Virus record (IMG/VR): IMGVR_UViG_3300047457_000503
Coordinates: 1 to 21,067 of that record
DNA from: a virus
DNA: 21,067 bases
Reading direction: 5' to 3' (one strand)
The position numbers were made by a program, and so were the translations under genes. Shown here in pieces: positions 2,494 through 11,043 of this stretch. Position 1 is the first letter of the stretch; every line of letters begins with the position of its first letter. The notes under the pieces were generated by a model. That model saw only the letters and a list, made by a program, of their open reading frames with translations, did no database searches and was not told the DNA's origin.

Positions 2494-2873
2494 GCGATCA
2501 CCTCGATCGCGAAGCGTCCGATCGACCAACAGGCGAGAACGCGGTCGGACTGCGGAACCGTGCGCGTGTACAGCGGTTCGCTCTTCACGAGTTCCTTCGC
2601 GTATGCGATCCCCTCGTCGATGTCGTCGAAGTTCTTCCGAAGCCGCTCGCCATCGAGTCCCGTCACGACGACGCTGACGCACGGCGGCTCGATCATGTCG
2701 CGGACGACGCGCCCGCCGACTTCGAGCGCGTCGCGGTTCGCGTCGTGCAGTTCGTCGAGGTCGTAGTATTCGAGGATGTCGGCCTCGGTGTCGTCACGGT
2801 CGACGACGACCCAGACGGGTACGAGAGTCGGGATCGGGTAGTTCGCGGGAAGGGTCGGAAGGGAGTAGGTCAT
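2490..2873 (-). CDS. Hypothetical acidic protein, 127 residues
   Basis: Not recognised. The protein begins with a proline-rich segment (MTYSLPTLPANYPIPTLVPV), followed by an acidic part ('DRDDTEADILEYYDLDELHD') and then a basic/hydrophobic C-terminal half containing 'SVVVTGLDGERLRKNFDDID' and 'IGRFAIEVIA'. There is no signal peptide or obvious membrane segment. The ATG is preceded by ACAGGAGACCACC, nearly identical to the leader of the next gene upstream, and the stop overlaps the GTG of the tiny membrane protein. It belongs to the same minus-strand operon as the recombination genes. Confidence 0.8.
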   Translation of the reverse strand: MTYSLPTLPANYPIPTLVPVWVVVDRDDTEADILEYYDLDELHDANRDALEVGGRVVRDMIEPPCVSVVVTGLDGERLRKNFDDIDEGIAYAKELVKSEPLYTRTVPQSDRVLACWSIGRFAIEVIA

Positions 2874-2891
2874 GGTGGTCTCCTGTGGGTA
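2870..2891 (-). repeat. Repeated ribosome-binding leader, copy 1
   Basis: The 22 bases covering the start codon and Shine-Dalgarno region of the 127-residue gene match 20 of 22 bases with the corresponding stretch at 3305-3326. The shared coding-strand pattern is TACC(C/T)ACAGGAGACCA(C/T)CATGA. A shorter version (13 of 14 bases) sits at the start of the zinc-ribbon gene (3702-3715). It acts as the translation signal here; the near-identity goes beyond the Shine-Dalgarno core. Confidence 0.6.
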
Positions 2892-2897
2892 GGTGGT

Positions 2898-3308
2898 TCA
2901 GCGTCCGACGTAGGCGACGCGCGCCTTCTCGAACGCGGCGATGATGGACTTCGGGAGTCGGTTCAGGAACGCGCCGTCGTCGTCGACGAGGTCGGTGTCG
3001 ATCTCGCTCGGGTCGCCTTCGTCGTCGAACTCGACGAACGCGAAGCCCTCGTCAGAGCGCACCCTATCGAACGACGTCGAAGCGTAGTCCCAACGGTGGA
3101 CGCAGACCGTGACACCGTTCGCGATGTCGCACCGATTGTCGGACGCCTTAAACGCGTCGATGAATCCGGCGACGGTCGCTGGGAAGTGTTCCGTGTCAGC
3201 GACGAAGTTCTCATCGCTCACCCAGACCTCGTACAGGTAGCGCGGGCCTTCGGTCGGCGCGATTTGCGCGGTCGTCTCGATCACCTTGGTCGTCGTCTTC
3301 GTGGTCAT
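2898..3308 (-). CDS. Hypothetical acidic protein, 136 residues
   Basis: Not recognised. After a Thr/Lys-rich N-terminus (MTTKTTTKVIETTAQIAPTE) the protein has a mixed alpha/beta look: 'RYLYEVWVSDENFVADTEHF', a central 'NGVTVCVHRWDYASTSFDRV', and a strongly acidic stretch 'VEFDDEGDPSEIDTDLVDDD' (about residues 92-111). A basic helix follows at the C-terminus. The acidic stretch could make it a DNA-mimic-like or regulatory protein, but nothing specific supports that. The ATG has the AGGAGACCATC leader shared with the downstream gene. It is separated from the zinc-ribbon gene by a 49-base spacer containing a strong hairpin. Confidence 0.8.
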   Translation of the reverse strand: MTTKTTTKVIETTAQIAPTEGPRYLYEVWVSDENFVADTEHFPATVAGFIDAFKASDNRCDIANGVTVCVHRWDYASTSFDRVRSDEGFAFVEFDDEGDPSEIDTDLVDDDGAFLNRLPKSIIAAFEKARVAYVGR

Positions 3309-3326
3309 GATGGTCTCCTGTAGGTA
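3305..3326 (-). repeat. Repeated ribosome-binding leader, copy 2
   Basis: This is the translation-initiation stretch of the 136-residue gene, matching 20 of 22 bases with 2870-2891. It contains ACAGGAGACCATC directly before ATG. The duplication suggests the two small genes, or at least their leaders, arose by local duplication or are under selection for the same initiation strength. Confidence 0.6.
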
Positions 3327-3332
3327 AGGGGT

Positions 3333-3350
3333 GGGGGGCCGAAGCCCCCC
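3333..3350 (-). terminator. Strong GC hairpin with TTCG loop between minus-strand genes
   Basis: Read on the minus strand, this spacer folds as GGGGGGC-TTCG-GCCCCCC, a perfect 7-base-pair stem capped by the very stable C(UUCG)G tetraloop. It lies between the stop of the zinc-ribbon gene and the leader of the 136-residue gene. No T-run follows, so it is not a classical intrinsic terminator. It could be a partial terminator, an attenuator or an mRNA-stabilising processing element that lowers expression of the downstream genes relative to the first gene. Confidence 0.5.
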
Positions 3351-3357
3351 GGGTGGA

Positions 3358-3705
3358 TCAGATCTTGTTCAAGCACTTGACGCAGGACACAAGGTTCTCG
3401 GCAAGTTCGCGAGCCTCCTTAGCGACGCGCTCGATATTGCCGCCGAGCGTGCGGGCCTCCGCGAGGGCGTCGAACGCGAGGGCGAAGTCGGCGCGGGCCT
3501 CGGCCTCGGTGTCGTAGGCAAAGTCGCACAGGGAGAGCGAGATGCCCGTCGCGACGTCGCACTGGGGGCAGAGGCCCTCGTACGAGTCGTCGATGCGATA
3601 GCGGCGTTCGCAGCAGTTGCAGCGGGCGATCTTGTCGCCTTTGCGGAAGCCGTTCGTCGTGGCCTTGATGCTGCGCTTGGTCGTGTTCGTCGTGTTGATC
3701 TTCAT
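3358..3705 (-). CDS. Zinc-ribbon hypothetical protein, first gene of minus-strand operon
   Basis: A 115-residue protein with two pairs of cysteines spaced as a zinc ribbon: Cys29-x-x-Cys32 ('CNCCE') and Cys46-x-x-Cys49 ('CPQC'), separated by 13 residues. This should fold as a small zinc-stabilised beta-ribbon. A third CxxC pair (Cys108, Cys111, 'CVKC') lies at the very C-terminus after a long helix (about 66-105) and may bind a second metal or pair with the first site in a dimer. The N-terminus is Thr/Lys/Asn-rich. The ATG has GGAGACC upstream, close to the repeated leader of the two downstream genes. As the first gene next to the divergent intergenic region, it could encode a regulator or a DNA/RNA-binding protein; this is inference. 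Confidence 0.82.
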   Translation of the reverse strand: MKINTTNTTKRSIKATTNGFRKGDKIARCNCCERRYRIDDSYEGLCPQCDVATGISLSLCDFAYDTEAEARADFALAFDALAEARTLGGNIERVAKEARELAENLVSCVKCLNKI

Positions 3706-3736
3706 CGTGGTCTCCGTCCGCTTGGGACGTGAGAAG

Positions 3737-3763
3737 ATTACAACACCCTAAAGTACGGCGCAA
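3737..3763 (-). promoter_or_regulatory. Weak candidate promoter for the minus-strand operon
   Basis: On the minus strand, TGTAAT (3737-3742) resembles a -10 box in an AT-richer patch about 30 bases upstream of the first start codon. TTGCGC (3758-3763) is a poor -35 match at a short 15-base spacing. The location is right for driving the zinc-ribbon to RecT operon, but the match is weak and the host sigma factor preferences are unknown. Confidence 0.2.
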
Positions 3764-4289
3764 GTACCCCCCGCTACTTTTTTCATTCTGACCACGGAAC
3801 CCCTCGTTTTCCCCGAGAAAACACGCGGTTCGGCTCCCGACTTCCTGCACCGCTTCGTCCCAAGAATCCGAGGCCGACGACGCGCCCGACGCCGAACTAG
3901 CGTCAGGACGGGTTCCCCGTAGACTGCGGACGCCTTCGACTCTGGTCGGTCGATGGTCTCCGACGACGGCGGGGGGAGGGTTCATCCCCGATCCCCGCCC
4001 AAGTCCTCGCGAGCGCGTGTGGGCACGCAGACTAAAACAGACAACCCGTCTCGCGACGGGAGAGCGACGCGGCGACGGTGGCCCACTCATCGTCGGCGCG
4101 TCGCTCTGTTTCGCGAGCGCGGCGTTCGCCCTCGACCGCGTGTCAACTCAAGGCGACAAGACCTCGCGGCGGGAAACTCCGCGCGGCAAGCGTCCCCGAG
4201 TAGAAACGGGGGGAAGGCGACGACCGTCGCCGATCGCGTCGGACGCTCACAGAAGGCGACGCGGGGGAGATCTCCACCAAACCACAGCG

Positions 4290-4347
4290 GCACACCGTTG
4301 GGGGGAGGGGGGGAGTTTGAGATCGCTTCAGACTTGCAGCGGTGTGC
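4290..4347 (+). repeat. Inverted repeat flanking a G6-A-G7 tract before the nuclease gene
   Basis: GCACACCG at 4290-4297 is the exact reverse complement of CGGTGTGC at 4340-4347. The 42-base interval between them begins with the run GGGGGGAGGGGGGG (4300-4313). The element ends about 25 bases upstream of the AGGAGA site of the VRR-NUC gene. In RNA it could form a long-loop hairpin with a G-quadruplex-capable loop; in DNA it could be a protein-binding site. An 8-base match could also arise by chance. Confidence 0.35.
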
Positions 4348-4383
4348 GTTCTTCGTCGGAACCCGAATCAGGAGAAGGCCAAG

Positions 4384-4722
4384 ATGCCCACCGAGACCGA
4401 GATTAAGAAGGCGATCCATTCACGACTCCGTAGTCTGCTTCCACGAATCGTTCGCGTACAGGCGGGACGGTTCCGAGGCGCGTCGGGACGGGTCGTACAC
4501 GCTGCGGAGCCGGGTACACCCGACCTCCTCGGGTTCTGTGATCACGGTCGCATCGTCGCAATCGAGGTCAAGAAACCTAACGGAGTCGCCACGCCGGAAC
4601 AGATCGAGTTTCTCGCAGCGGTTTGCGTTGCCGGAGGTCTCGGTGCAATCTGTACGTCCGCAGATGGTGCGGAGGAACTTGTGCGAGCAGAATGTCGGAA
4701 ACACACGGAGCGTAACGGATGA
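4384..4722 (+). CDS. VRR-NUC domain nuclease
   Basis: A 112-residue protein of the VRR-NUC (PD-(D/E)XK) nuclease type found as a stand-alone domain in many phages. Key residues: an N-terminal Glu in 'TETEIKKAI', then Gly44-Thr45-Pro46-Asp47 ('PGTPDLLGF'), Glu61-x-Lys63 ('IVAIEVKKP'), and the following 'ATPEQIEFLAAVCVAGG' helix with Gln73. Phage VRR-NUC proteins are thought to act as structure-specific nucleases; the exact substrate here is unknown. The ATG at 4384 was chosen because AGGAGAAGG lies just upstream; an in-frame GTG further up (4342) has no such site. Its stop overlaps the methyltransferase ATG (ATGA). Base composition is less GC-biased than in the structural genes, which suggests a different history. 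Confidence 0.88.
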   Translation: MPTETEIKKAIHSRLRSLLPRIVRVQAGRFRGASGRVVHAAEPGTPDLLGFCDHGRIVAIEVKKPNGVATPEQIEFLAAVCVAGGLGAICTSADGAEELVRAECRKHTERNG

Positions 4723-5942
4723 ATATCGAACGAGTGCCAATCACCTCTCTCATCGGAGATCCTTCCAACGTTCGTCGACATGACCAAAAGAACCTCGACG
4801 CGATCAAAGGTTCACTCGCTAGATTCGGGCAACAGAAGCCGATCGTCGTCGGTGCGAACAACGTCGTGATCGCAGGGAACGGAACGGTCGCTGCCGCTCT
4901 CAGTCTCGGATGGGTCGAGATCTCGATCGTGCGTTCCGAACTGATCGGGCCGGAGGCGACGGCGTTCGCGATCGCCGATAATCGCACGGCGGAGTTAGCG
5001 GAGTGGGACGAGGACGCACTCGCGCAACAACTCGCCGCCTTGGCGATCGACGACGAAGATCTCGCGCGGGCGACGGGGTTCGATGCGCGGGAACTGGATC
5101 GTCTATCATTGGGGCAAGATCTTGAGCAAGACGCAGTACCCGAAACTCCGATCGAACCGATAACGCGACGCGGCGACGTCTGGATTCTTGGGGAACATCG
5201 TGTCATGTGCGGCGATTCAACGGACGACGCCGATCTCGCGCGTCTTTTCGGGGAATCTCGTGCCGATATCTGTTTCACCTCTCCTCCCTACGCGTTGGGG
5301 ACTTCGATAACGCTGAGAGGGAATCGCAGTATGATGTCGCAGAGAGGGAGCGCGTATATCGGACACGCGGATCGTCCGCAGGAGTGGCTCGATCTCATGT
5401 CGCGATGGTTCGACGCTTCGCGACCGTATATCAGCGACGTATGGGTGGTAAACGTCCAACCACTCGCGGGGAATAAACGAGACCTGTTCCGATGGATCTA
5501 CGATCGCGTCGGACAACTCATCGACGTCGTAACGTGGGACAAGCAAGTGTCGGTTCCTCATATCCAAGCAGGTGTTTTGAGCGCGAGATTCGAGTGGTTA
5601 ATCGCTTTCGGGAAGGAAAACGCGTCTAGGTGCTTTCCGCTTTCATCATGGCGAGGAACGATCTCATCGGTGTACGTCGGCCTTCTTCAACGCGGAAACG
5701 AGTTCTCGGACATTCATGCCGCGACGATGCCCTTGCACCTTCCGGCGTGGGTTCTCGGGACGCTCTGCGATCGTTCTCAAGTTGTTTACGATCCGTTCGG
5801 AGGGACAGGCACGACACTTATCGCCGCTCATCAACTTCGGAAGCGTTCGTTTCTCATGGAGATCGAACCCGTATACGTCGACGTGATCGTAAAAAGATGG
5901 GAAACAATCTCCGGCGAAGTTGCGCGGCGTGAGGTGGTTTAA
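4719..5942 (+). CDS. ParB-like domain / DNA methyltransferase fusion (N4/N6 type)
   Basis: A 407-residue two-domain protein. Residues 1 to about 110 look like a ParB/sulfiredoxin-like nuclease-fold domain ('IERVPITSLIGDPSNVRRHD', 'QKPIVVGANNVVIAGNGTVA', 'AIADNRTAEL'). Residues from about 150 onward are an amino-methyltransferase: 'RRGDVWILGEHRVMCGDSTD', catalytic motif IV Thr187-Ser-Pro-Pro-Tyr191, and the SAM-binding motif near the C-terminus 'YDPFGGTGTTLIAAHQ' (Asp358, Gly361-Gly364). The order catalytic motif then SAM motif fits the beta class. SPPY is more typical of N4-cytosine enzymes, but the modified base cannot be settled by eye. This fusion is common in phages as an orphan methylase that may protect phage DNA from restriction. 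It is coupled to the nuclease by ATGA and shares its lower GC content. Confidence 0.9.
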   Translation: MNIERVPITSLIGDPSNVRRHDQKNLDAIKGSLARFGQQKPIVVGANNVVIAGNGTVAAALSLGWVEISIVRSELIGPEATAFAIADNRTAELAEWDEDALAQQLAALAIDDEDLARATGFDARELDRLSLGQDLEQDAVPETPIEPITRRGDVWILGEHRVMCGDSTDDADLARLFGESRADICFTSPPYALGTSITLRGNRSMMSQRGSAYIGHADRPQEWLDLMSRWFDASRPYISDVWVVNVQPLAGNKRDLFRWIYDRVGQLIDVVTWDKQVSVPHIQAGVLSARFEWLIAFGKENASRCFPLSSWRGTISSVYVGLLQRGNEFSDIHAATMPLHLPAWVLGTLCDRSQVVYDPFGGTGTTLIAAHQLRKRSFLMEIEPVYVDVIVKRWETISGEVARREVV

Positions 5943-6002: not shown

Positions 6003-6404
6003 GTGGCAAGGTTCTCCGTCAAAACACCTGAACGCGTTTCCGCGATCATGAAGGCGTTACGCGCCGGATCTACTCGACGTGCCGCCGCGCAGTTCGGCGA
6101 GATTCATGTCGACACCTTCTACGACTGGTTTAACAATGATCCGTCGTTCTCCGACGAAGTTCTAAAAGCCGAAGCGGACGCCGAGGTTCGATTCACGACG
6201 AAGATCGCCACTGCTGCCGAGGAGACATGGCAGGCCGCCGCGTGGTGGCTTGAGCGACGTCGACCCGACGACTTCCGCGAACAACGCGGACAGATCATCT
6301 CCGGGAACCTTCAACTCGGTCTTTCCGAACTCATGCGCGAAGCGCGCAAGACGAAGAACGCCGCGCGCGACGCTGAGTCGCCGCCGCCCTCCTCCGAGGT
6401 CTAA
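6003..6404 (+). CDS. Terminase small subunit-like DNA-binding protein
   Basis: A 133-residue protein with an N-terminal helix-turn-helix ('MKALRAGSTRRAAAQFGEIH', 'VDTFYDWFNNDPSFSDEV', about residues 14-50), then a long helical segment ('AEADAEVRFTTKIATAAEE', 'AAAWWLERRRPDDFREQRG'). Small terminase subunits bind the packaging site and regulate the large subunit, and this pattern plus the following TerL gene supports the role. The start is GTG at 6003; nearby ATGs at 5992 and 5995 are out of frame. The ribosome site is weak. The stop is 2 bases before the next gene. The C-terminus (from about 105) is charged and probably flexible. Confidence 0.75.
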   Translation: MARFSVKTPERVSAIMKALRAGSTRRAAAQFGEIHVDTFYDWFNNDPSFSDEVLKAEADAEVRFTTKIATAAEETWQAAAWWLERRRPDDFREQRGQIISGNLQLGLSELMREARKTKNAARDAESPPPSSEV

Positions 6405-8518: not shown

Positions 8519-11043
8519 AGGGCAAGATCCTCAACGGGCGTCCGGCGTTCACGCGCGCGCGAACCGCGCAGACGCGCACGAAGACCGTCCCGGGCACGGA
8601 GTGGTTCTGGCTCCCGCGTCGACTCCTTCAGACCGAGGAGACCGTATCGAACGCCTACGCGCAGAACGCATGGGCGCACGCGGCGATCAAACTGAAGGCG
8701 CGTATGTGCGCGAGCGTCCCGCTTGAGATCCTCGCAGGGTCTCGACGCGACCGCGACGGCGAACCCGTGCGCGGCGACGACACGCTCCGTCGGCTCATGG
8801 AGTGTCCGTCCCCGCTCATGTCGGGGCACGAGTTCATCGAGGCGACGTCGATCTATCTCGACCTGAACGGCGAGTGCTTCTGGATCGGCTACGCGGCGGA
8901 CGGCTCACCGCTTCGACGCGGCGAGGTTCCCGCCGAGATCCTGATCGTCCGACCCGACGGCATGGTTCCCGACATCGATCAACGGACGGGAATCGTCCTC
9001 GGTTGGCAGACCACGAACGCGAACGGCGAGGTGTTCCGATTCACCGCCGAGCAAGTCGGGCATCCGAAGGAGTTCGACCCCGCCAACCCGTACAGGGGTC
9101 TCGCGCCGATCACGCCCGTCCTTCCTTCGTTCAACTACGAGTTGCGGGCGACGCAGTTCAACAACGCGCTACTCGCGAACGGAGCCGACCCGGGCGGCAT
9201 CATCTACTCCGAATCGCCGCTGACGCAGGACGAGGCGACGGGCCTCCGCTCGCAGTGGGAGGATCGGCATCGAGGCGCGATCAAGTCCGCGCGGCTCGCG
9301 ATCCTCTCCGGCGGTCTGAAGTACGAGCCGATCGCCGTCACCGCGAAGGACATGGCATTCTCCGACGCCCTCGGTTGGGGCAAGTCGGAGATCCTCGCAG
9401 TCCTCGGCGTGACGAAGTTCGACCTCGGCGAAGTCGAGGAGACGAACCGCGCGTCGTCGCTCACCGCGAAGGCGAACACTTGGGAGAAGACGATCCTCCC
9501 GCGCCTACGTCTGATCGAGTCGACCCTGTGGTCGTGGCTTCTCGAACCGCTCTCCGCGCGTCTCGGTCGCGACGTCTGGGCGGAGTTCGACGTGTCGGAG
9601 GTCGAGGCGTTACAGGCTCCGATGACGGAGAAGGCGCAGCAGGCGCAGATCCTAGTCGCCGCCGGATACTCGAAGGAAGCGGTGAACGTCCGCCTCGGTC
9701 TCGGCATCGAGGAGGAGCCGACCTTCGACCTTCCCGAACTCCCGACCGCCGGGACGCCCGACGTCTCGACGCCGACGCCTGCCGCGCCCGCGTCCGTCGC
9801 CGAGACCGCGATGAACGGGGCACAGGTCACGTCGCTCGTGCAAATCGTCCAGTCCGTCGCGAACGGCGAACTCCCGCCGGAGTCCGCGATCGTGACGCTA
9901 CAGATCGCGTTCCCGACGATCTCCGCCGAGGAAGCGCGCGCGCTCATCGAACCCGCCGCGCGTGCCGCTGCCGCGCGTCCTGCGCCGTCGGAACCCGCCG
10001 CGCCGCCCGCCGCACCTGTCGCCGCTTCGGTCGCGCAGAACCCCGCGCAGGGCGTCGCGCATAAGTCCGCGAATATGCGCGGCGTCCGTGTCGGCGACCG
10101 CTTCACCGCCGAGGGTAAGACCTTCCGCGTCGTGAAGGCGTGGAACGCGAAGAGTCGCGACGCGTCGAAGGTCGAGAAGGTTCTACGCGTCGCGATGCAG
10201 AAGGTGTTCCGGCAACTCCGAACGGAGGAAGTCGACGCCGTGGCGAAGTTCTCCGACGTCCTCGCGCCCGCGCTCGCGGTGAACGAGACGCGCGAGACCG
10301 AAGCCGTCGCCGAGACCGCGACGAAGGCGAACGACACCGTGACGCTGACGACGGTCACTCAGCGGCTACAGCCGCAGGGCGTCGAGTTCTCGTGGCCCCC
10401 GGCGTTCCTCGAATGGGCGCAGAGCGCGCCGGATCGGTGGGAACAACGCGCCCGCGAGATCCTCGGTCAGATCGCGCCGGAGATCGCGGAAGCCGCGTTG
10501 AACGAAGTCCGCGTCGCGATCGGCGGCTTCTCCGTCGTGAACCCCGCCGACAAGGAGTGGGTCGAGGAAGCCGGAAAGCGCACCGCGTCGATGATGCGTG
10601 TCACGCGCAAGGCGGCGACCCGGTTCAACCAGATCATCCTGACGAAGATCGGAACCGACGGTCTCGCGAACGTGACCGACCTCGCGAAGACGATCGAGGC
10701 GACGATGGGTCGGTTCATCGTGTCCGACGCGATGACGATCGCGCGAACCGAGACGGGGTTTATTCAGGAGCAGTTCAAGAACCGCGCCGCGAAGGAAGAA
10801 GGCTTCACTCACCACGAGTGGTCGGCGGCTTCCGACGCGCGTCCGTCGCATCAGGGGCAGGGCAGCGTCCGCATCGGGGAGAAGTTCCCGAACGGTCTCC
10901 TGCACCCGTGCGAGATCGGCGCGCCTGCGGAAGAGGTCATCAACTGCCGCTGCACCGCCGTCCCGTTCGTCGCGCGCGAGGAACTCGGAACCGAGGCGGA
11001 CATCGAGGAGATGAACCGTCTCATCGCGGCGGGGAAGATCTGA
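8515..11043 (+). CDS. Portal protein fused to MuF head-morphogenesis domain
   Basis: An 842-residue fusion. Residues 1 to about 420 are an HK97-type portal: 'ETVSNAYAQNAWAHAAIKLK', 'GHEFIEATSIYLDLNGECFW', 'NPYRGLAPITPVLPSFNYEL', 'FNNALLANGADPGGIIYS', and 'ILAVLGVTKFDLGEVEETN'. A segment around 433-480 ('MNGAQVTSLVQIVQSVANGE') is followed by an Ala/Pro-rich linker (about 482-510) and a short beta-type segment 'GDRFTAEGKTFRVVKAW'. Residues about 690-830 are a MuF-type minor head domain: 'RFIVSDAMTIARTETGFIQ', 'HHEWSAASDARPSHQGQG', ending at Asn810-Cys-Arg-Cys813. The portal forms the DNA gate; MuF-type proteins are minor head proteins, some delivered into the cell. The GTG start overlaps the terminase stop; TGATG joins it to the protease gene. 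Confidence 0.93.
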   Translation: MKGKILNGRPAFTRARTAQTRTKTVPGTEWFWLPRRLLQTEETVSNAYAQNAWAHAAIKLKARMCASVPLEILAGSRRDRDGEPVRGDDTLRRLMECPSPLMSGHEFIEATSIYLDLNGECFWIGYAADGSPLRRGEVPAEILIVRPDGMVPDIDQRTGIVLGWQTTNANGEVFRFTAEQVGHPKEFDPANPYRGLAPITPVLPSFNYELRATQFNNALLANGADPGGIIYSESPLTQDEATGLRSQWEDRHRGAIKSARLAILSGGLKYEPIAVTAKDMAFSDALGWGKSEILAVLGVTKFDLGEVEETNRASSLTAKANTWEKTILPRLRLIESTLWSWLLEPLSARLGRDVWAEFDVSEVEALQAPMTEKAQQAQILVAAGYSKEAVNVRLGLGIEEEPTFDLPELPTAGTPDVSTPTPAAPASVAETAMNGAQVTSLVQIVQSVANGELPPESAIVTLQIAFPTISAEEARALIEPAARAAAARPAPSEPAAPPAAPVAASVAQNPAQGVAHKSANMRGVRVGDRFTAEGKTFRVVKAWNAKSRDASKVEKVLRVAMQKVFRQLRTEEVDAVAKFSDVLAPALAVNETRETEAVAETATKANDTVTLTTVTQRLQPQGVEFSWPPAFLEWAQSAPDRWEQRAREILGQIAPEIAEAALNEVRVAIGGFSVVNPADKEWVEEAGKRTASMMRVTRKAATRFNQIILTKIGTDGLANVTDLAKTIEATMGRFIVSDAMTIARTETGFIQEQFKNRAAKEEGFTHHEWSAASDARPSHQGQGSVRIGEKFPNGLLHPCEIGAPAEEVINCRCTAVPFVAREELGTEADIEEMNRLIAAGKI

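Follow-up and report, generated by a model that had tools for sequence, protein, structure and literature searches.

The window analysed here, a virus record of 21,067 bases, comes from an uncultured, GC-rich tailed phage, an assignment based on the tailed-phage genes it carries. Its left gene block runs leftward and comprises RecT-like, RecE-like and small genes; its right block runs rightward and encodes a VRR-NUC nuclease, a ParB-like/DNA methyltransferase, the small and large terminases, a head protease and the capsid protein. The first-pass annotation had described a gap of about 680 bases between divergent operons, and this was confirmed: 678 bases without a credible gene (3706-4383) separate the two blocks. 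Rightward transcription most simply starts in this gap, because the left-side genes run leftward. The framing features and the conserved core of the gap are as follows.

3358..3705, minus strand: first gene of the leftward operon, an open reading frame for a Cys-rich protein of 115 aa
3735..3763, minus strand: possible leftward sigma-70-like promoter (TTGCGC, 17 bases, TAATCT), seen by eye from the sequence and alignment
About 3797-4323, plus strand: conserved, putatively structured RNA core of ~520 nt (alignment A2 columns 125-661; ends estimated)
4384..4722, plus strand: first gene of the rightward operon, a VRR-NUC nuclease (Pfam PF08774, 31.1 bits against a cut-off of 23.8)

The Cys-rich protein gave no match at E 0.01 in PHROG or Pfam. 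Farther right, 4719-5942 encodes an N6/N4 DNA methyltransferase joined to a ParB-like domain, of which only the first part aligns at the DNA level in several relatives; 6003-6404 is the likely small terminase gene, so placed that the gap element lies ~1.7 kb upstream; and 8802-10064, between the terminase and protease genes, encodes a 420-aa protein with no PHROG match at E 0.01. Matches to the capsid, terminase, RecT and protease proteins yielded no host prediction: the best capsid matches were Synechococcus phages at ~31%, those of terminase and RecT were scattered, and the protease match covered only 19%.

The core was found whole in four other IMG/VR contigs (L003, L005, L006 and L101) and in part in L004. 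These homologues were recovered by flanking-protein searches and DNA patterns, and two further patterns returned the same four; the "five homologues" are the window plus these four, with L004 a partial sixth. Core length among the five was 516-535 nt, and identity to the window was 92.9% (L006), 88.0% (L005) and 86.1% (L003). L101, which we call the most diverged, aligned at 86.5% over 527 and departs from the others 3' of a TTTGAGA/TCTGAGA segment. In L101 the core is more like the window than are terminase (76%, 670 aligned bases) and VRR-NUC (73%, 136 aligned bases), whereas in L003, L005 and L006 it is not above terminase (93-96%) but is above VRR-NUC (80-82%). Nor is the core the most alike stretch in L101, because 187 bases at the left end of that contig match window 3176-3361 at 96%. 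To the left of the L101 core a different 70-aa reading frame takes the place of the Cys-rich gene, and to its right a putative methyltransferase gene (DPPYG motif, by eye) precedes VRR-NUC; retention of the core while the genes on both sides differ fits an autonomous element. In all five phages the core stands ahead of the first rightward gene, about 60-165 nt upstream.

Within the core the family is clearly a mosaic: 38 two-state columns in 134-446 are common to L003 and L005, 9 in 506-633 to L003 and L006, and 8 in 607-654 to L003, L006 and L101. Stem alleles, or internal blocks of the core, are shuffled between phages, and recombination therefore occurs here.

Searches beyond the family returned no further copy. 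A profile HMM run over 110 loci, including methyltransferase relatives (80 loci kept of 177) and the Cys-rich-gene relatives L090/L091, found none outside the family (best E 0.07, L105), and a covariance model of a 166-position part (R1), run on 75 sources including the window, gave a best outside E of 0.13, again in L105. Four of 15 whole related records, mostly fragments, had a match, and all four were known copies. Significant reverse-strand model matches fell on the same element, mostly on a palindromic hairpin. DNA-pattern matches in L092, L096, L097, L098, L099, L100, L102 and L111-L114 were rejected as chance by alignment; the single genome_contigs pattern match, in a Polyangiaceae MAG (L103), was also rejected, having no blastn similarity beyond the pattern and lying within reading frames. 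Among nine relatives examined, chosen for carrying this neighbourhood, the upstream contig ends of seven (L104, L101, L095, L109, L106, L107 and L105) fall within window 2758-4454 and those of L108 and L110 outside it. The ends near the RNA are scattered over 1.7 kb, not gathered at one terminus, and perhaps reflect assembly breaks at mosaic, GC-rich hairpins, or conceivably a genome end close by.

The helices predicted for a plus-strand RNA, listed below, were curated and then counted on the sequence alignment; most recur in folds of the five homologues.

3806..3822, plus strand: hairpin GUUUUC/GAAAAC, 6 pairs, all cells paired, one U-A changed to U-G; competing with it is a further predicted long-range pairing, between 3801-3809 and 4204-4212
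3823..4141, plus strand: long-range helix between 3823-3830 and 4134-4141 that would close the 5' domain, a prediction with no covariation support; one of its 8 pairs is broken in L005 (A-C), the other 7 being invariant
3885..3907, plus strand: hairpin, one of five tested pairs changed on both sides (L101), the rest invariant
3928..3961, plus strand: hairpin with internal loops, 12 pairs, of which one is changed on both sides, two on one side, one is broken (L101) and eight are invariant
3968..3999, plus strand: stem with the first G-tract, two of three outer tested pairs changed on both sides; the inner part aligns poorly, and the relatives carry two very different alleles
4045..4060, plus strand: hairpin CCCGUC/GACGGG, 6 pairs, one compensatory (L101) and one G-U (L006); terminator-like on the minus strand, at chance rate
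4061..4107, plus strand: long hairpin, the best supported, 7 of 19 pairs changed on both sides and 97.9% of cells paired (G-U 9, A-C 0, other mismatch 2)
4165..4183, plus strand: hairpin with a GAAA (GNRA) tetraloop invariant in all five, two of seven pairs changed on both sides (G-C to C-G, G-U to C-G), one broken in L003
4194..4211, plus strand: hairpin CCCCG-AGUAGAAA-CGGGG, which includes a portion of the second G-tract, invariant in all five and hence uninformative for covariation
4216..4263, plus strand: two hairpins (4216-4231 and 4235-4263), stems invariant, loops variable
4285..4313, plus strand: region of the third G-tract, a stem (4285-4288 / 4297-4300) followed by GGGGGGAGGGGGGG (4300-4313), one of four stem pairs changed on both sides

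Comparison of the homologues supports the view that these stems keep their pairing through compensatory change. Two-sided changes were found in 15 of 92 tested pairs, against 7.4 in shuffles (none of 500 as high), a test inflated by relatedness; the five near-complete homologues are in effect a few haplotypes. Paired cells made up 98.7% of 460, a figure that is partly circular because the structure was derived from the same sequences; sliding the partners by 1-3 columns left 34-50% paired and 2-3 two-sided pairs. Our own leave-one-out count gave 16 two-sided pairs for the full set of five and 11-16 when a single sequence was dropped. Further pair types, one of the five shuffle measures, were not above chance (26 versus 24.6; 167 of 500 shuffles), and the covariation term of RNAalifold was small (-1.71 of -260 kcal/mol). 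Seven of the 15 two-sided pairs sit in the long hairpin at 4061-4107. In pairwise terms, the window and L003 differ in the tested pairs by nine changes on both sides, five on one side and two broken, and the window and L101 by five, five and two; the worst comparison, L003 with L005, gave two, three and two. More than one lineage contributed compensation, because changes specific to L101 and to L006 exist beside the L003/L005 haplotype.

By folding energy the region stands out from shuffles only to a moderate degree. For the whole gap the z-score was -2.6 on the plus strand and -2.15 on the minus strand, with the raw energy lower on minus. For the core, with 30 shuffles each, z in the window, L003, L005, L006 and L101 was -3.1, -4.3, -4.1, -3.3 and -1.6 on plus, and -2.2, -2.0, -2.4, -3.0 and -0.5 on minus. 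Folding energy alone is not decisive, because among nine further segments of the window one gave a z of -3.5.

The strand was judged mainly from wobble pairs. Over helices called on both strands, G-U exceeded A-C by 15:3; the long hairpin contributed 9:0 and the remainder 6:3. Counts over helices called on one strand (G-U:A-C of 39:4 on plus; A-C over G-U of 37:12 on minus) are biased by the caller, and only the both-strand helices were used. The energy z was lower on plus in all five sequences, narrowly so in L006, although the raw folding energy was lower on minus in the window and L003. An all-pairs helix scan found 32 helices with at least one compensated pair on plus (shuffle mean 10.4, maximum 25) and 37 on minus (12.75, 22), and three per strand with at least two (shuffle means 0.35 and 0.2, maximum 2). 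The excess was present on both strands, and the scan therefore did not assign the strand; its strongest helix, with five two-sided pairs of 11, was on plus alone. The occurrence of G-U without A-C in the best helix points to a plus-strand RNA rather than to DNA.

The G-tracts fared less well as a hallmark of the region. G6 runs are concentrated in the gap on the plus strand, starting at 3971, 4208, 4300 and 4307. The remaining 20.4 kb have only two, with starts at 3333 and 14945; of C6 runs there are two outside the gap, at 504 and 3345, and one inside it, at 3767. The first-pass annotation had reported three plus-strand G-tracts of the same type, and they do exist, but that they are of one type is doubtful, as only two are conserved. 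The first, which forms an arm of the variable stem, is missing in L003, L005 and L101. All five homologues have the second, with one base different in L005, and the third is found in all five, with one base different in L101, as well as in the partial L004. The G-tract motif is not the unifying feature. The claim of at least four inverted repeats also held only in part: the repeat tool listed three pairs in 3600-4500, of which one is clearly strong (4061-4080 / 4088-4107, 90%), another has arms 508 nt apart (84%) and the last is a 12-nt palindrome, while shorter stems are backed by covariation. No direct repeat of at least 12 bases was found in 3600-4500. The 8-mer AAGGCGAC occurs three times on the plus strand of the core, at 4150, 4214 and 4253 (4150..4260), with spacings of 64 and 38-40 in all five homologues; the window holds six copies on both strands, against 1.28 expected.

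Two smaller observations concern short motifs. A near-identical 19-mer (AAGGCGACAAGA...) occurs in the mRNA of the leftward Cys-rich gene (3623-3641, minus strand) and in the RNA (4150-4168, plus strand), possibly as a shared binding site. Positions 4268-4269 and 4314-4315 read AG/AG in the window and L005 and CC/CC in L003, L006 and L101; the dinucleotides switch together without being complementary, and the switch sits beside AGAUCU or GGCC palindromes.

The core matched no catalogued element in the collections searched. None of 4227 Rfam families matched at the gathering score; ROOL and GOLLD were absent there and, for three homologues, up to E 10, and the sub-threshold Rfam matches differ between homologues and look like chance. 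blastn of the window region against 50,697 phage records gave eight short matches of at most 69 bases, at chance level, and the L101 region gave none in the same records; in 72,556 plasmids, 14 records had short matches, the five of them shown covering at most 7%. An exact search of 84,980 species genomes, a limited test with a single pattern, gave one chance match, the L103 match already mentioned. Literature searches on similar RNAs and on put showed no element recognisable as the gap RNA.

Several other explanations were weighed against an RNA. That the gap hides an unrecognised protein gene or overlapping frame is scarcely credible: a single plus frame stays open across the core in the window and in L101, but in L003, L005 and L006 every one of the six frames is interrupted by at least one stop, differences by window position modulo 3 are flat (29/26/20, 26/21/16, 10/10/15 and 20/23/23), and core lengths differ from that of the window by 15, 17, 2 and 2 bases. 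The core looks non-coding. Neither a conserved protein nor an absence of conserved structure, the outcomes that the first-pass annotation had set against its own reading, emerged: no frame is conserved, and structure is kept in the alignment. A GC-rich spacer with incidental hairpins, its apparent compensation arising from a few exchanged blocks, is very improbable. Such a spacer would suit the small number of sequences, their clear mosaic, the overlap of core energies with one other window segment and the near-identical left end of L101, which makes a recent neighbouring exchange possible; yet whichever two sequences are compared, the tested pairs that have changed are mostly compensated or still able to pair, and some of the compensations occur only in L101 or only in L006, outside the main division into haplotypes. 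Quite improbable, too, is a DNA element with DNA hairpins, be it an origin, a pac/cos packaging site or a recombination site. The proximity to the likely small terminase gene, the nearby contig ends (in contigs chosen for this neighbourhood) and the shuffled stem alleles would favour it, but the G-U excess of the long hairpin is unexpected for DNA, and direct repeats of at least 12 bases are missing from 3600-4500, where only the 8-mer recurs. GC skew, proposed earlier as a check for an origin, dips slightly over the gap and is positive on both sides of this incomplete genome, with no lasting switch, and the scatter of the contig ends likewise speaks against the packaging site that had been suggested. 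Of the earlier candidates (an origin, a packaging or recombination site, or a structured RNA), compensated stems and G-U pairs favour the last, and positive evidence for an origin or packaging site was not found.

A closer competitor, possible if on balance doubtful, is an RNA leader that acts in cis on the rightward operon as a whole. While still nascent, the RNA would fold and alter the polymerase transcribing it, for processive antitermination in the manner of put, or would set late timing in another way. That the element precedes the rightward genes in each of the five phages suits a leader, and since L101 has another gene in first place, the target of control would be the operon and not one particular gene. 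A strict scan of 3300-4800 found no plus-strand terminator, as a leader would have it, but it also found no promoter on either strand, and so none for rightward transcription. The put RNA of HK022, which suppresses termination by way of the zinc-binding domain of the polymerase beta-prime subunit, is likewise a phage RNA with stem-loops near an operon head; PMC9378689 gives it ~70 nt, two stem-loops and two sites per genome, places putL just downstream of its promoter and has put act on terminators at least 10 kb away. The core, in contrast, has ~520 nt, many stems and one copy in the 21-kb window, with no second copy in the 15 related records, mostly fragments. A put-like sub-element may lie inside it.

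The best explanation, to which we give about an even chance, is that the gap core is a large structured RNA not described before in phages, which lies where the rightward (late) operon begins and acts in trans as a free RNA. That it is a structured RNA is supported by its conservation in five phages, its non-coding sequence, its compensated stems and their plus-strand G-U pairs, all read from sequence. Action in trans is inferred from its size and from the exchange of its neighbours. The phi29 pRNA is another phage RNA, much shorter and belonging to another phage type. According to PMC12286853, pRNA forms a homomeric complex in phi29, and Rfam holds models of ROOL and GOLLD, whose functions are still poorly understood. 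The likeness to ROOL and GOLLD lies in being large, phage-encoded and non-coding with many covarying stems (PMC12286853); the core is phage-encoded, several hundred nucleotides long and has covarying stems, as counted on five sequences only. It differs in leaving their covariance models unmatched and may differ in its setting: ROOL and GOLLD are often near tRNA islands (PMC12286853), and a tRNA search of the 21-kb window, a fragment, found none.

Transcription of such an RNA would accompany or shortly precede that of the rightward operon (nuclease, methyltransferase, terminase and capsid genes), and the RNA would be released or processed from the rightward transcript; processing would be needed because no rightward promoter or terminator was found. 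The RNA itself is probably the functional product, on the model of ROOL and GOLLD, and once free and folded it might act in trans, either through contact with a protein of the phage or the host or through self-assembly. The stems would be mainly architecture, free in sequence with pairing kept, and contacts would be made by conserved segments, among them AAACAGACAAC, all three copies of AAGGCGAC, the GAAA tetraloop and the third G-tract. An unlikely extension is a new class of large phage RNA with a protein-free fold and self-assembly like those of ROOL and GOLLD, which form RNA-only homo-oligomers (cages). In this case the AG/AG versus CC/CC switch would mark an intermolecular contact and exchanged stem alleles would set specificity; in OLE and GOLLD, kissing loops are described as switching palindromes in such a way (PMC12286853).

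Few large structured phage RNAs are known, and this one, matching neither ROOL nor GOLLD and standing at the head of a late operon, would be one more. An RNA kept while its flanking genes change would provide an independent case, either of late expression governed in cis or of a free RNA machine.
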